Below, piece by piece: positions 37,908 to 44,771 of a DNA stretch of 44,771 nt. Where the stretch lies: positions 1-44,771 of the forward strand of contig CALUVE010000014.1 in NCBI GenBank assembly GCA_944324135.1, written 5' to 3'. The stretch comes from Candidatus Gastranaerophilales bacterium. GTDB lineage: Bacteria; Cyanobacteriota; Vampirovibrionia; Gastranaerophilales; Gastranaerophilaceae. Position numbers and translations under genes: made by a program. Below the pieces are notes generated by a model. That model was not told the DNA's origin. It did not search any database and saw only the letters and a list, made by a program, of their open reading frames with translations. How positions within the stretch are numbered: the stretch's first letter is position 1; the number at the start of each line of letters is the position of its first letter.

Positions 37908-37949
37908 TGCCCCCTCACCCTTAATCCCTCTCCCGCAGGGCGAGGGAAA
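37908..37949. repeat. Inverted repeat, cassette 3' end
   Basis: 42 bp, perfectly complementary to 38260-38301. Begins at the cysK side with TGCCCCCTCACCC. Within it, TCTCCCGCAGGGCGAGGG forms a smaller imperfect hairpin. It contains the stop codon of the hydE-DUF559 fusion. Confidence 0.95.
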
Positions 37950-39306
37950 TTGTCTCAAATACTCCGTCAATATTGTTGTCAATATCATTATTCCAGAAAC
38001 GAAGAATTTTAAATCCTCTGGATTTTAAATATTTAGTTCTTTCTTCATCATATTTTTGCTGCTCAGGAGTATTATGCCCTCCTCCATCTAATTCGATTAC
38101 AAGCATTTTTTGTATAACTACAAAATCAACTATGTATTTCCCGATGGGGTATTGCCTTTTAAATTTTGTATTTTCAAATTGACTATTACGTACAAGATTC
38201 CAGAATTTGAGTTCCTGCGGTGTCATATTTTTTCTTAAATATCTTGCAGTATTAGTATGTTTCCCTCGCCCTGCGGGAGAGGGATTAAGGGTGAGGGGGC
38301 AGTCTGTATTTCCCCTGTACCCCTTTTTGTGAGAAATTGTCCTGCCGATTGAGCGGAGTTTTTCTGATAATTCAGTATAATTCACACCCGATTTGTTTGG
38401 ATAAATTTCATATTTGGCACAAACATCTTTATCGGTTAAATTCGGCATCACAACGTTTGCACCGCTTTGGAGAGCGAGTATTCTTCCCGCCGGATTTAAA
38501 GTTTCCATAGCAGTAGTCGCAGGGATATTTATATCAGGCAGCAGCAGACGCGTCAGAGCCATTACTCTCAATGCCAGATCCAAACTGCCGTTTTGCATAT
38601 CTTTCAACGGAGTATGCGGATGAACAATCAAAGGCCCTATCCCAATCATATCAGCATTCAATTCTTTAAAAAATAAAATATCCTCGGCTAAAGATTCTAT
38701 AGTTTGCCCTGGCAATCCTACAAGGCATCCGGTACCGGTTTCAAAGCCTAATTTTTTCAAATCTTTCAAACATCTTATGCGATTTTCAAAACTAGCACCT
38801 GGATGACATTTTTGGTATAACCTGCGGTCTGTTGTTTCAATTCTGAGCAAGAATCTGTCAGCGCCGGCGGCTTTTAGAATTTTATATTCCTCAAAAGTTC
38901 TCTCGCCGATACTCAAAGTAACAGCGACATCATTCTGTTTGATTTCTTTGATAATATCAGCAAGATAACCGGCAGTAAAAAACGAATCCTCGCCGGACTG
39001 TAAAACAATAGTTTTGTACCCGAAATCAACTGCCTTGAATGCTGCTTCAATAATCCTGTCAGCACTCATCCTGTATCTTTCAACATCGCGATTTTCAAAG
39101 CGCAGCCCGCAATAAACACAATCACAACGACAAATATTAGAAAACTCAATTAAAGCTCGAAGATGCACCTCATCGCCGACATAATCCCGTCTGATAACAT
39201 CCGCAGCTTTGAAAATCTGTTCTCCGGATTCACAAGACAACAGAGATACCAACTCTTCCTTATCTAAAGAATGCTCTGTTTTCGCCTTGTTTATCAAATC
39301 ATTCAT
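37921..39306 (-). CDS. hydE: HydE radical SAM maturase fused to a C-terminal DUF559 nuclease domain
   Basis: Residues 1-335 are HydE, which builds part of the [FeFe]-hydrogenase H-cluster: radical SAM motif CxxxCxxC at Cys59, 63 and 66 (CRCDCVYC), YRMSADRIIEAA, TIVLQSGEDSF, LSIGERTFEE, GCLVGLPGQT and ATTAMETLNPAGR. Residues 336-461 come from the inverted-repeat cassette: a PLTLNPSPAGRGK linker and a DUF559 domain with intact nuclease-type residues (YIVDF, then VIELDGGGH). HydE length without the tail is close to normal, so the host enzyme may still work. The ATG at 39306 is preceded by TATAAT 6 nt upstream and no Shine-Dalgarno sequence; a TTG at 39324 is less likely. HydF and HydG are not in the window. 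Confidence 0.88.
   Translation of the reverse strand: MNDLINKAKTEHSLDKEELVSLLSCESGEQIFKAADVIRRDYVGDEVHLRALIEFSNICRCDCVYCGLRFENRDVERYRMSADRIIEAAFKAVDFGYKTIVLQSGEDSFFTAGYLADIIKEIKQNDVAVTLSIGERTFEEYKILKAAGADRFLLRIETTDRRLYQKCHPGASFENRIRCLKDLKKLGFETGTGCLVGLPGQTIESLAEDILFFKELNADMIGIGPLIVHPHTPLKDMQNGSLDLALRVMALTRLLLPDINIPATTAMETLNPAGRILALQSGANVVMPNLTDKDVCAKYEIYPNKSGVNYTELSEKLRSIGRTISHKKGYRGNTDCPLTLNPSPAGRGKHTNTARYLRKNMTPQELKFWNLVRNSQFENTKFKRQYPIGKYIVDFVVIQKMLVIELDGGGHNTPEQQKYDEERTKYLKSRGFKILRFWNNDIDNNIDGVFETISLALRERD
38260..38301. repeat. Inverted repeat, cassette 5' end (within the hydE fusion)
   Basis: 42 bp, perfectly complementary to 37908-37949. Read on the minus strand it encodes the PLTLNPSPAGRGK linker between HydE and DUF559. 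A looser relative (CCCCCCACCTAACCTCCC and CCGCAAGG core) lies at 42556-42590. Confidence 0.95.
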
Positions 39307-39312
39307 ACCAGA

Positions 39313-39318
39313 ATTATA
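39313..39318 (-). promoter_or_regulatory. -10 box of hydE, predicted leaderless
   Basis: TATAAT on the minus strand at 39318-39313, then TCTGGT and the ATG at 39306. No convincing -35 is visible because the terminator hairpin occupies that region. Confidence 0.45.
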
Positions 39319-39322
39319 ATAC

Positions 39323-39351
39323 AAAAAAGGCTGATATTGCTATCAGCCTTT
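39323..39351 (-). terminator. Terminator of the anti-sigma/sigma/Spy-like operon
   Basis: A perfect 11-bp stem AAAGGCTGATA/TATCAGCCTTT with a 4-nt loop, followed on the minus strand by six T. It lies directly upstream of hydE and insulates it. Confidence 0.9.
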
Positions 39352-39398
39352 ACACAATGTTGGTTATATTTTCGGGATTATTCAACAACCGGAGCAGG

Positions 39399-40085
39399 TT
39401 AAACTGCCGGTTCTACAGGTGGTTGAGGTGCAGGCATAGGACCCGGGAATGGTCTTGGACCGAATTCCGGATGATGTGGTTTTTTACCGCAGCAGTCGCA
39501 CTGGCAAGGTTTGTGACCTTTTTTGCGAGCTTGTTCAAAGCGTTTTCTGCCTTCATCTTTCATTTTTTTCAATTCTTTTTGTTGTTTTTTAGTCAGGATA
39601 GATTCAAAATCTTTCATATTTTTTTGATGAAGTTCTCTTGCCTGTCCTTTCAATTCTTGGATTTCTTTTTTCAACTGAGCAATTTTTTCTTCCTGCATTT
39701 GTGTTGAAATTCTTGACAATTTAACAGTTTCAATTTCTTGACGCTTCAATTTAATCTGTTCCATAATAGGTTTCATTTCTTCATGACCTTTTTTACGGAG
39801 TTCTTCAGCCTGAGCTTTTTGTTCATCTGTAAGGTTCAAACGTTTTTCAAAATTTACTCTCGGATCTTTTTTAACGCAATCGCATTTTGCTTTTTTGCAT
39901 TTCGGGCAATCGCATTTTTTAAACTCGCGTTTAGGCGGCAATTTGCACTCAGCAGGTTGAGCAGTTTCAATTTTTTGTGCAGGCTGCAGGGCATTTTGTT
40001 CAACAGCCTGTTCAGCAGCATAAACTGATGTCATTGTCATTGCAAGTATACCTGCAAGAATAAGTGTTTTTTTCATAAGCTTCAC
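39399..40085 (-). CDS. Exported Spy/CpxP-like protein with cysteine clusters
   Basis: 228 residues (222 if the ATG at 40076 is used instead of the GTG at 40085; the AAAGGA site is 3 and 12 nt away, neither ideal). Signal peptide about 1-23. Two LTxxQ-type motifs (NLTDEQ near residue 100 and ILTKKQ near 165) bracket long charged helices, as in Spy/CpxP and CnrX-type periplasmic proteins. Unusually, ten cysteines flank the helical core: Cys47, 58, 60, 63, 68 and 70 (CDCPKC...CDC) and a C-terminal CQCDCC, then a His/Pro-rich tail. Such CxC spacing is typical of thiol metal ligands. It follows the sigma-factor gene after 12 nt, suggesting a periplasmic sensor or an output of that sigma factor. 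Confidence 0.78.
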   Translation of the reverse strand: MKLMKKTLILAGILAMTMTSVYAAEQAVEQNALQPAQKIETAQPAECKLPPKREFKKCDCPKCKKAKCDCVKKDPRVNFEKRLNLTDEQKAQAEELRKKGHEEMKPIMEQIKLKRQEIETVKLSRISTQMQEEKIAQLKKEIQELKGQARELHQKNMKDFESILTKKQQKELKKMKDEGRKRFEQARKKGHKPCQCDCCGKKPHHPEFGPRPFPGPMPAPQPPVEPAV

Positions 40086-40097
40086 ATGTCCTTTCTT

Positions 40098-40595
40098 TTA
40101 CAATAAATCTTGTAAACTTTCTGCTAACTCTTTTTTTGCTTTGAATAAACGGGATTTTACAGTACCGAGCGGGCATTTTATTTTTTCTGCGGCCTCTTCG
40201 TAGGTATAACCGTCTATTTCACACAGCATTACTACTTCTCTAAATTTTGGTTTTAATGCGCTTATAGCATTCATAATAGTTTTTTGTCTTTCGTTTCGGA
40301 TTAACCTTTCTTCCGGAGAATGTTTTTTGTCTTTTAACTGAATTACAGCCTCATCATCAGAAACAGTACTCTGGGAATTTTTAAAATGCGAAGATTTCAG
40401 ATAATCTTTAGATACATTTTTTGCAATAGTATTAATCCAGCTTTTGAATGTGCCTTGTTCTGTGTACTTTTCGGAATTCTTCCACACTTTCAAGTACACT
40501 TCCTGTTCTAAATCTTCGTTTGTCTCATTAGTGATAAGACGTATTATATTTCTTACATTCTGCTTATTTGCAGATATAATTTTGTTAAAATCCAT
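40098..40595 (-). CDS. ECF-type RNA polymerase sigma factor
   Basis: 165 residues with sigma region 2 (about 20-60: NEDLEQEVYLKVWKNSEKYTEQGTFKSWINTIAKN) and region 4 (about 112-160: LKPKFREVVMLCEIDGYTYEEAAEKIKCPLGTVKSRLFKAKKEL), and no regions 1 or 3. This is the minimal ECF architecture for signal-responsive transcription. The start overlaps the stop of the anti-sigma gene by one base. An ECF-like promoter in front of the operon suggests positive autoregulation. Confidence 0.92.
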   Translation of the reverse strand: MDFNKIISANKQNVRNIIRLITNETNEDLEQEVYLKVWKNSEKYTEQGTFKSWINTIAKNVSKDYLKSSHFKNSQSTVSDDEAVIQLKDKKHSPEERLIRNERQKTIMNAISALKPKFREVVMLCEIDGYTYEEAAEKIKCPLGTVKSRLFKAKKELAESLQDLL

Positions 40596-40933
40596 TATTC
40601 CACCATTAAAAAGCCGTACTCATCGACCGGAAAACCGTAATCTTCCGCGCTCAGAACAGAACCGTATTTTACAGTATCAACAAAATCCTGGCCGTGAGTC
40701 ATGAACCCGAGTGAGGCACTGCTTATAACCATTGCAAATGCAATACAGGCCACCTTGAGTTTTTGAAGTCTGTTTTTTCTATATAACGGTCTGACTTCTG
40801 AAATCAATGAGGAAACTTTTTGCATTTTTTCATGTTCTTTTCTGCAGTCTTCACATTCGGCAAGATGCTTTTGAAAAGTTTCTTCATCTGCGAAAGTAAA
40901 GTATGCTTCGTATTTGTCACATTTTTTAGTCAT
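40595..40933 (-). CDS. Membrane anti-sigma factor with a ZAS-type zinc motif
   Basis: 112 residues. The cytoplasmic N-terminus has His23-x3-Cys27-x2-Cys30 (HLAECEDC), the core of the zinc-binding anti-sigma (ZAS) domain. One membrane helix follows (about 60-80) and then a short extracytoplasmic tail of about 30 residues. Predicted to hold the downstream ECF sigma factor inactive. The order anti-sigma then sigma is inverse to most ECF operons. The extracytoplasmic tail is too short for a sensor domain, so a separate protein such as the Spy-like one probably senses the signal. Confidence 0.82.
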   Translation of the reverse strand: MTKKCDKYEAYFTFADEETFQKHLAECEDCRKEHEKMQKVSSLISEVRPLYRKNRLQKLKVACIAFAMVISSASLGFMTHGQDFVDTVKYGSVLSAEDYGFPVDEYGFLMVE

Positions 40934-40957
40934 TTTTGTTAACCTCTATACCATTAT

Positions 40958-40982
40958 AACGAATTATAAAAAAAAAAGTTCA
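40958..40982 (-). promoter_or_regulatory. ECF-type promoter of the anti-sigma/sigma operon (candidate)
   Basis: On the minus strand TGAAC (40982-40978), 16 nt including a run of ten T, then CGTTAT (starting at 40961). GAAC-16-CGT is the spacing and sequence of many ECF promoters. A housekeeping-like TATAAT overlaps the -10. GAGG lies 9 nt before the ATG. Confidence 0.45.
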
Positions 40983-41068
40983 TTTTTATGTTCGAAAAAA
41001 TTTTTATGATAAAATAAAATTTAACACTAGCAAAAAACTTAATTCAGGGATTTTAATAAATAGCGATT

Positions 41069-41602
41069 ATGAACGAAGCAGCATCAAAATTTCTAGAACG
41101 GGCTTTTTTAAGGCTTGGGAATCTCAGAAAACCCATATATCCTGTCATGATGATAGCGGCAGGCAAGGGGATATTTCGTCCTATGTTCACAATGATGGAC
41201 AAGAAAGAAGAGCCAGAGACAAAGCGTTATACTGCAATAAGAGAGGGGTTAACAGAACTTATCGCAATTCCGACATACTATTTTTGCGGAAAAGCATCCG
41301 CCTCATTATCCAGACTATTTCCGCCCAAATTGCAGGGCAACGCGGCTACAAACCTTATGTTCATAGGGGTATGCGGAGCTGCACTATTTGCAATACCTGC
41401 ATTATGTTCTGTTGCAATAAAACCGATAATGGACGCAATCCACAAAAAGAAAGCTCCGGAACCGCAGCCGATAGTATTAAGCGGAACCGTTAAACAGAGC
41501 AAATTTCCTGTGAAGTATCACAACAACTTTAACAGTCTGAATACATTTTCCAGCAGAATGCCTGATGCCTACAGACTAAACAGCAGAATAGGAGGTGTGT
41601 AG
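41069..41602 (+). CDS. Membrane-associated protein of unknown function, first of a paralogous pair
   Basis: 177 residues with two or three hydrophobic segments (about 24-38, 64-78 and 92-118). It shares with the next gene the pattern G..RP....(V/M)DK...P(D/E)TK.Y.A..E (about residues 30-65), followed by a hydrophobic helix pair. No known domain. No clear ribosome-binding site. It is divergent from the anti-sigma gene and directly abuts the next gene. Confidence 0.62.
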   Translation: MNEAASKFLERAFLRLGNLRKPIYPVMMIAAGKGIFRPMFTMMDKKEEPETKRYTAIREGLTELIAIPTYYFCGKASASLSRLFPPKLQGNAATNLMFIGVCGAALFAIPALCSVAIKPIMDAIHKKKAPEPQPIVLSGTVKQSKFPVKYHNNFNSLNTFSSRMPDAYRLNSRIGGV

Positions 41603-42241
41603 ATGCTTAGTGCCATAACTAACACAATAGCGAATCAACACCTCGCAAATATAGCTTTGAACCCTATAGCGCAAGTAAGCATAGAAACTACATTAAAAGC
41701 AATCGGCAGACCTGCGGCAATTCTTGTTGACAAAGATATTTCGCCGGACACAAAACAATACGCAGCATCAAAGGAATTTTTATATCAGGCAACTTGCTTA
41801 TTAACCTTTTTAGGAATAATCGTACCGTTATTCAGAAAAGGCGGATTTCAGCTTGCGAAAAAAGTATTGTTCAAAGACAAACCGGAATTCCAAAAATTTG
41901 AAAACGTAAAAGAATTTGAACACTACATGAAATTAACTAAAAAATCCATAGAGGACAGAAGGCTGACCCTTCAGAAAGAAAAAGTTAAAGACAAATATCA
42001 TCCGGATGTCAGAAAGGATTTGGAGACAAATGAAAACCCTGAGACATATCCGTTAATAGTAAGCACGATAGGGGTATTTAACCTAATGGGTTCAGTACTG
42101 GGATTAGCGGTATTAGCGCCGCAGGTAAGCCACATGTTTATACACCCGGCGCTTAGACTCCTCGGGTTGGAAGAGAAGAATAAAAAGGGAACGGAAGAAC
42201 AGAAAACCGCACCTGCCGCAAAAATAGACACAAAAGCCTGA
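41603..42241 (+). CDS. Membrane-associated protein of unknown function, second of a paralogous pair
   Basis: 212 residues with hydrophobic segments near 67-85 and 150-175 and a charged helical middle. Shares KAIGRPAAILVDKDISPDTKQYAASKEF with the matching segment of the upstream protein (GKGIFRPMFTMMDKKEEPETKRYTAIREG). The ATG follows the previous stop codon without a gap; AGGAGG lies 8-13 nt upstream within the previous gene. The pair is probably translated together and may form a heteromer. Last gene before the repeat array. Confidence 0.62.
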   Translation: MLSAITNTIANQHLANIALNPIAQVSIETTLKAIGRPAAILVDKDISPDTKQYAASKEFLYQATCLLTFLGIIVPLFRKGGFQLAKKVLFKDKPEFQKFENVKEFEHYMKLTKKSIEDRRLTLQKEKVKDKYHPDVRKDLETNENPETYPLIVSTIGVFNLMGSVLGLAVLAPQVSHMFIHPALRLLGLEEKNKKGTEEQKTAPAAKIDTKA

Positions 42242-43034: not shown

Positions 43035-43100
43035 TCATGTTCATTTCTATCATTAGTACTGATGCAAACATCATGTTTGCCCCCCGCAAGGGGGAGGAAC
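43035..43100 (+). repeat. Repeat R4, copy B
   Basis: Matches 42511-42592 with a short deletion in the C-rich part. Confidence 0.8.
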
Positions 43101-43121
43101 TAAAACTACCCTAGCCCCTTG

Positions 43122-43250
43122 CGGGATGCTAGTTCGAACCGGCGAGGTTACGAACCGTGTGAGACTGTATGCCGACGCCAGTCGGCTGAGGTAGAATTTC
43201 ATAACGAGCGAATGCGAGTTCTAGAAATTCGGGTGAGGGGTTTCTGCTTA
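43122..43250 (+). repeat. Repeat R5, copy B
   Basis: Matches 42671-42735, then carries an extra GAATTTC...GAAATTC inverted segment before the common GGGTGAGGGG end. Confidence 0.8.
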
Positions 43251-43441
43251 ATATTTCTCAACATTTCTTAACACATTTTCCGCCTAAATATCCATTGGAT
43301 ATACACGTCTTGTGGGTATTTTTACACCCTTGTTCTACGTAAACCCGAAAACCAATTGTAAAAATTTCCTCCAAAACACTTTAATTTTTATTTAAAAAGG
43401 TATATCATATTAATATACAAGAGATACATGAGGGATATCGC

Positions 43442-44771
43442 ATGAAAAATATTTTAAACGGTAATAATAAAATCTCAAAACCCTTGAATAGTAACATTTT
43501 CGGGGGGGGGGGGTAACCTCTAAAGCCTTATTGGCGGCGCTTTTGCTGGGCGCATTGCCGGCGGCAGCAACAGATGGTGAAACCATCGCACTTAATCCTA
43601 CGAACTTAGGACGTGAGGTCGGTTCAGCTGGTACAAATTCCTCCCAGCCAGCGGAGGGTGACCTTTTGGCGCTTGAGGATACAACACTGACTTTTCCAGA
43701 CCCGATGGGAGACGGGGCGGTTAGTTTTACGCCGGTCACAGAAAAAGACGAGAACACAATAACCCAATTCCAATACAATCAGACTACAGGCGGGTTTGAA
43801 CCTGTATTTTATCGTGTGGATGTCAAGACTGAATACGGCACCGGCGACACTGCGCTGAACTTTGGCTGGGAAGAGGATGCTGACGGCAATCCTACTTTTA
43901 CGCAGAACCCGACAGCACCCATCGCGCCGGAAATTATTTACAAATATGACTCCCAAACCCCTACAAACACCGCTATGACTATCACTACCGATATGTCTGA
44001 CACCGACATCTCCGGCAACTTTATAGGGCTGGATGGTACTGCTATATTGACTTCAACAAATGGTAAAACAGGCAATATCAATGCAAACTTTATTAATAAC
44101 AAAGGTGCTGGTATTTCCTCTTTACGGCAAGAAACTTATTTGGGTGATATAACAGGTGATTTTATAGGCAATCAAGCTGGTGGTATATATATTGTTGATG
44201 GCAAAGTTGGTAACATCCGCGGTAATTTTATAGGAAATACAGCGGAGCGTGGCAGCGCCATTTATAATGGATATTGGGGTACAGGGAACGGCGCCTTTGG
44301 TGATATAACAGGTAATTTCATCGGCAACACTTCAAAAAATAATATGGGTGCGATACATAATCAGATGATTATGGGAACTGTTACAGGCAATTTTATTGGC
44401 AACAAGGGTGGTGCTATAAACAATACGAAGGAGCTGCGATCTAGTGCTGAAATAGATGGTATATCCGGCAGCTTTATAAACAACTACATTTTTAACGATT
44501 CTGATTCCTATTATGATACACCTCAGGGTGCTGCTATATATAACACCGGTAGCATTGGTAAGGAAAGTTCCCAAATTCCGGATAATGCTGCAAGCCAGCT
44601 TAATACAGCTGTCCAATATGCTTCTCAAACATTAATCAATAGCGAGACAGGTGAATCTTTAACTGCTTACACTGCATTGAATAGTGAAAACGTGCCTTTA
44701 ACCGCTGAACAATTGGGAGAATATATTGCTTCGGGCGGCAAAGTTTTACGTGTTGCAATGACTTATAAAGC
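43442..44771 (+). CDS. Autotransporter-like beta-helix surface protein, out of frame at a poly-G tract (partial)
   Basis: The ATG at 43442 has GAGGG 7 nt upstream. After 20 codons the frame enters 12 G and stops at TAA (43514-43516). The next frame is open from the G tract to the window end, about 419 codons. It begins with a signal peptide core SKALLAALLLGALPAAATDG. The tract needs 10 or 13 G to join the two; in this read the gene is OFF. The exported part (from about 43960) has at least seven units with an I.GNFIGN core (GDISGNFIGL, GDITGDFIGN, GNIRGNFIGN, GTVTGNFIGN) often followed by GGAI or GAI. This is the FxxN/GGAI pattern of beta-helical passengers such as chlamydial Pmp proteins. The C-terminus, with any beta-barrel domain, lies beyond the window. 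Confidence 0.8.
43502..43513 (+). repeat. Homopolymeric G12 tract (phase-variation switch candidate)
   Basis: Twelve consecutive G in an AT-rich genome, between the start codon and the hydrophobic core of the signal peptide of the terminal gene. Length changes of one unit (13) or minus two (10) restore the reading frame; 11 and 12 stop within a few codons. Confidence 0.9.

Follow-up and report, generated by a model that had tools for sequence, protein, structure and literature searches.

A poly-G tract ahead of the export signal as a probable ON/OFF switch of an autotransporter gene in Candidatus Gastranaerophilales

The DNA stretch analysed here (the window, 44,771 nucleotides) ends within a gene in which a start codon leads into a run of 12 G and then, at once, a stop codon, although the sequence beyond stays open in another frame. 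Is this gene broken, miscalled, or a switch caught in its OFF position? The window comprises all of contig C14 in a fragmented 1.82 Mb assembly of 47 contigs; because the contig end cuts the gene, its 3' half is unseen. An earlier interpretation made from the letters alone (the sequence-only reading) had placed the DNA in a gut melainabacterium, an assignment that holds at the level of Candidatus Gastranaerophilales.

That reading had described an ATG with a good ribosome-binding site running through 12 G into a stop, and the locus has precisely this layout: GAGGG (43430–43434) lies upstream of the ATG at 43442, from which translation gives MKNILNGNNKISKPLNSNIF-GGGG and ends at TAA 43514–43516, after exactly 12 G. 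With 10 or 13 G the frame of this ATG is open as far as the contig end, with SKALLAALLLGALPAAA as the signal peptide core; with 11, 12 or 14 G it is closed. The open lengths 3' of the tract are 0, 2 and 418 codons in the three frames, both wrong frames being shut within three codons. The complete open frame (43495–44769) has 425 codons, and its post-tract share of 418 matches the roughly 419 that had been estimated for 10 or 13 G, as does the signal peptide core that was expected at the start of the reopened frame (Table 1). The OFF state at this locus is the assembled consensus of one assembly. A promoter and terminator scan 5' of the gene found no promoter-like site on the forward strand and a total no better than in shuffled sequences. 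The neighbouring genes (39357–42241) were not found near any family member fetched, so that no syntenic orthologue is established, and no second strain of the window locus itself was found. Further upstream, on the minus strand (37921–39324), a single open frame combines a radical SAM domain with a following DUF559/endonuclease-like domain.

Table 1 Features at the 3' end of the window
Feature	Position	Strand	Remark
Shine-Dalgarno-like GAGGG	43430..43434	+	7 nt 5' of ATG; GGAGG/GAGGA at the equivalent place in relatives
Start codon and pre-tract leader MKNILNGNNKISKPLNSNIF, 20 codons	43442..43501	+	K(P)LN motif seen again before the tract in relatives
12-G homopolymer, proposed slippage switch	43502..43513	+	10 or 13 G opens the frame
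Stops shutting both non-coding frames straight after the tract (TAA 43514–43516, TAA 43521–43523)	43514..43523	+	seen in the sequence
Signal peptide core TSKALLAALLLGALPAAA, ON frame	43516..43569	+	conserved family-wide
Post-tract coding region, putative autotransporter passenger, 418 codons to contig end	43516..44769	+	64% identity to the ON paralogue C29
GNFIGN/FxxN repeat region, beta-helix predicted by analogy with the C29 model	44014..44487	+	

The nature of the product was judged via a paralogue in the same genome, C29, a complete gene with an in-frame tract of 11 G and an open frame of 1203 aa. The autotransporter barrel model TIGR01414 hits C29 (E 1.4e-14), and a structure model from 11 family members has a beta-helical passenger (pLDDT mostly 80–90) that in the PDB is most similar to pertactin (E 7e-5), with EspP, IgA1 protease and Ag43 next; searching solved structures by sequence returned nothing meaningful. 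C29 therefore combines the Sec signal, beta-helix passenger and C-terminal barrel of a type V autotransporter, the modelled barrel itself being of low confidence (pLDDT below 50). The window gene shows the signal and the passenger only, and its C-terminal barrel would lie beyond the contig end; by its relationship to C29, it most likely encodes a type V autotransporter. Of the repeats proposed for the passenger, the GNFIGN/FxxN type stands out clearly, with eight FxxN motifs against a mean of 1.5 and a maximum of 6 in 1000 shuffles, whereas GGA[ILV] (proposed as GGAI) occurs just once in this truncated part and 4 to 19 times in many relatives, whose repeat counts reach 31 FxxN and 19 GGA(I,L,V).

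A 12-G run is far beyond chance length here, and it lies within a reading frame. The second-longest G or C run in the window has 7 nucleotides, and the genome as a whole holds 8 runs of at least 10 G or C and 3 of at least 12, against 0.3 and 0.012 expected from a first-order Markov estimate. The genome's other tracts are also non-random in location. The proposed search for further surface-protein genes with a G tract at the equivalent place yielded C29, in the ON frame; other tracts lie in a family-2 glycosyltransferase (13 G), an acyltransferase-3 (11 G, close to its end), a radical SAM/B12 protein (10 G) and an AlgX-like SGNH gene on C32 (L059:2867–5997; 11 G, in frame). The last is directly followed by an MBOAT acyltransferase, and its homologue in genome G002 (L128), with a 12-G tract, is out of frame; the pair possibly represents phase-variable glycan O-acetylation. 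Runs of at least 9 G or C at C26, C2 and C10:47570 were rejected as switches since no long open frame spans them, the one at C26 sitting in a non-coding repeat that resembles window 43080–43130, and an 11-G run at C4:87405 was set aside owing to its position just 3' of a stop codon. A dispersed palindromic repeat of the CCCCGCAAGGGGGAGG type occurs at these two places (window 43080–43130; C26:8145–8183 of the same genome, G000), and translated copies (SSPLAGEARWG) are also found within autotransporter N-termini, for example that of C29. On the minus strand of L124:1961–3625 in G002, a 12-G tract fuses an upstream glycosyltransferase-2-like part in frame with a second GT2 domain.

To place the window gene among its relatives, we collected 19 tract-bearing members of the autotransporter family from four species of the genus, 17 of them from three further species (Candidatus Gastranaerophilales MAGs). 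The tract lies 45–75 nt past the SD-ATG and directly 5' of the signal core in all 19. Among the uninterrupted tracts (9–12 G, four genomes), 5 of 17 are ON and 12 OFF, a ratio in line with random frames. Both T-interrupted tracts (GGGGTGGGGGGG) are ON, and a relative outside the genus with an interrupted tract, GGGGGGAGGGGG, is likewise in frame. The member from Zag_111 has 10 G and is out of frame. The three tracts broken by T or A, namely these two and the one outside the genus (L080:13577, L083:2078, L155:2740), are thus all ON, as if locked. Tract length varies between close relatives while the flanks are conserved: two copies from different species (L075 and L079) have 11 and 9 G with 119 of 120 flanking nucleotides identical (120 nt identical upstream, 59 of 60 nt downstream), and among near-identical pairs from all collected tracts (flanks at least 90% identical), five of seven differ in length. 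In the tract-less members C1 and L072, leader and signal core form a single continuous reading frame, indicating that the fused frame is a real protein and validating the upstream ATG. No relatives were found among viral contigs. Across the family autotransporters of G000–G003, barrels are nearly identical between paralogues and species and the passengers differ, different passengers being preceded by identical 5' cassettes; this pattern suggests recombination, which is probably why contigs break in these genes.

Coding sequence is conserved in genes that are OFF. One OFF/OFF pair of homologues (G002_C9 and G001_C17) aligns over 1544 codons without a stop at a dN/dS of 0.13, and an OFF prepilin pair (see below) has 0.22. 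The window gene compared with C29 gives 0.44, which is only moderately low, so that the purifying selection anticipated downstream of the tract is strong in the OFF/OFF homologues and moderate in the window gene itself. Low dN/dS in OFF genes argues against decay; a genuinely decayed member, L068, is by contrast a 238-aa remnant. A lack of mismatch repair as the cause of instability was also rejected: MutS1 and MutL are both encoded in the genome, so that tract instability is not explained by a repair defect. This counts against a slippage switch, though phase switches of this kind also occur in repair-proficient species such as Neisseria. Another member of the bacterial family, G005, has a divergent MutS1 match below the cut-off and no MutL match.

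The same layout recurs in a second kind of surface protein. Five genomes (G024, G041, G006, G012 and G058; e.g. L163, L190–L245) each contain dozens of prepilin-like genes with a G9–G13 tract about 30 nt past the ATG, 5' of the prepilin cleavage motif (G/A)FTLAEVL, so that the arrangement exists in dozens of paralogues in the bacterial family. Two adjacent paralogues in G024 (L214) share 117 of 120 flanking nucleotides and have 10 and 12 G. These genes are mostly out of frame in the assemblies: among 83 analysed (9 to 13 G), 11 are in frame, which is below one third (p = 6e-5, an optimistic value, since these paralogues are not independent of one another). An OFF share above two thirds is not predicted by purely random frames and counts against our preferred explanation; selection to keep few pilins active, a length equilibrium near 10 together with inherited phase, or assembly bias may lie behind it.

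We surveyed the class with a strict pattern (SD-ATG, 15 to 55 nt, then G9 or longer) and the reversed pattern as control, adding up the totals ourselves. In the Gastranaerophilales family there were about 1308 matches in 61 genomes, of which 47 had matches and the richest had 90, compared with 22 for the control; in the other families of the class there were 9 matches in 56 genomes against 3. The genome of the window has no strict match because its start sites read GAGG and not GGAG, and it stands at the low end of the family. Glycan-modifying genes bear tracts as well. Given that the arrangement recurs across the family, with as many as about 90 such genes in a genome, slippage probably turns surface proteins on and off in these bacteria, as it does in several pathogens. 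We further think it reasonably probable that the poly-G phasome of this bacterial family ranks among the largest known, with a few to about 90 genes per 1.7–2.3 Mb genome, mostly prepilins, and the switch lying in a disposable leader; this non-pathogenic gut lineage would then express its surface filaments and autotransporters in random combinations, with most of them OFF.

For the window locus, these observations make it very likely that we are dealing with a translational ON/OFF phase-variation (contingency) locus driven by replication slippage. The first 20 codons and the poly-G tract would together form the n-region of the signal peptide, and slippage during replication would alter the number of G. 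At 10 or 13 G the leader would be joined to the hydrophobic core and the passenger exported (ON); at 11 or 12 G translation would stop within three codons, ahead of any export signal, and the change of frame would end export altogether (OFF). A change by 3 G would leave the mature protein unaltered and lengthen only the cut-off part, because the tract sits in the part removed on export. The sequences themselves contain the tract, its frames, the in-frame paralogue, the family-wide position, the variation between near-identical copies and the signs of purifying selection in OFF genes, and together with the 5 ON tracts among 17 they support the contingency locus that had been proposed from the window; from them we infer slippage in the living population, its reversibility, surface exposure and a phenotype.

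Four other accounts of the G run have to be weighed against this. G tracts pose difficulties for sequencing and assembly, the deposited G11 of a Bifidobacterium breve tract differed from the majority length (PMC9187656), and the window comes from a fragmented 47-contig assembly, all of which could speak for a miscalled tract in a gene truly fixed in frame at 10 or 13 G. Such an error would have to have struck 12 of the 17 tracts, across four genomes, and it explains neither the two in-frame interrupted tracts nor why tracts are in excess at precisely this position, so that we regard it as quite improbable. A recent frameshifted pseudogene would fit a gene interrupted by one stop and ending with its contig, yet apart from the tract there are 418 codons without a stop, OFF/OFF homologues stay open over 1544 codons under constraint, and the truly decayed member looks different; we give this account very little credence.

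Two accounts remain. If RNA polymerase slipped or ribosomes shifted frame at the G run, the gene would be partly ON at every length, and rescued expression would make the OFF excess among prepilins (11 of 83 ON) tolerable. Against this, the lengths in near-identical copies vary and are not fixed, interrupted tracts, which are not expected to slip, are in frame, and both wrong frames of the window locus are shut within three codons; we therefore consider it unlikely. The G run might also act as a ribosome-binding element for an internal start, making the frame irrelevant, and a TTG (43531) in the passenger frame does lie 17 nt 3' of the tract. A start there would drop the basic n-region of the signal, however, every member has a good SD-ATG upstream, and the tract-less members use that upstream ATG, all of which makes an internal start highly implausible.

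Read as a replication-slippage switch, the locus extends a phenomenon so far known mainly in host-adapted pathogens and a few commensals to a deep, non-photosynthetic, gut-dwelling branch of the cyanobacterial phylum. In the literature searched, from which subscription journals are largely absent, no paper names both phase variation and Gastranaerophilales or Melainabacteria. The tracts are concentrated in two surface-protein families and are absent or near background in the other families of the class. The question of why gut commensals need contingency loci becomes testable in existing metagenomes via the G lengths in reads. Annotation pipelines will call most such genes broken fragments.

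Among known systems, autotransporters of the pertactin, EspP and Ag43 type share the predicted beta-helix passenger and C-terminal barrel; their sequence identity to the family described here is about 10%, and we know of none that is switched by a poly-G tract in the leader. Chlamydia Pmp proteins, which the sequence-only reading had invoked, belong to the type V autotransporters as well; they contain FxxN and GGA(I,L,V) repeats and have poly(G), and pmpG has been proposed to phase-vary via poly(G) length (PMC10242142). The Pfam repeat Chlam_PMP (PF02415) matches 7 of 11 family members. Nevertheless, neither the window protein nor C29 matches it at E 0.1, the Pmp middle domain (ChlamPMP_M) has no match at E 1 among the 11 members, the C-terminus ends in KKEIKSL, the phylum is different, and the tract here lies 5' of the signal core family-wide. 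The comparison holds as an analogy in repeat motif, autotransporter architecture and poly(G) and does not establish membership: the window gene would work like a poly(G)-switched Pmp and is not filed as one.

The arrangement also recalls Campylobacter, Helicobacter and Neisseria, where intragenic poly-G/C tracts turn adhesins and glycan-modifying enzymes ON and OFF by slippage (e.g. PMC8437040, PMC5084427). The lineage differs, and here two large paralogous families carry the tract systematically within the leader that is cleaved off. The closest case tested in a commensal is the pilus switch of the gut bacterium B. breve, in which a G9–G12 tract lies close to the start of a gene for a surface structure; mixtures of lengths were measured there, and in-frame forms were enriched in mice (PMC9187656). 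That switch governs Gram-positive sortase-dependent pili at two loci, whereas the tracts described here belong to autotransporters and type IV-like prepilins, at up to about 90 loci per genome.
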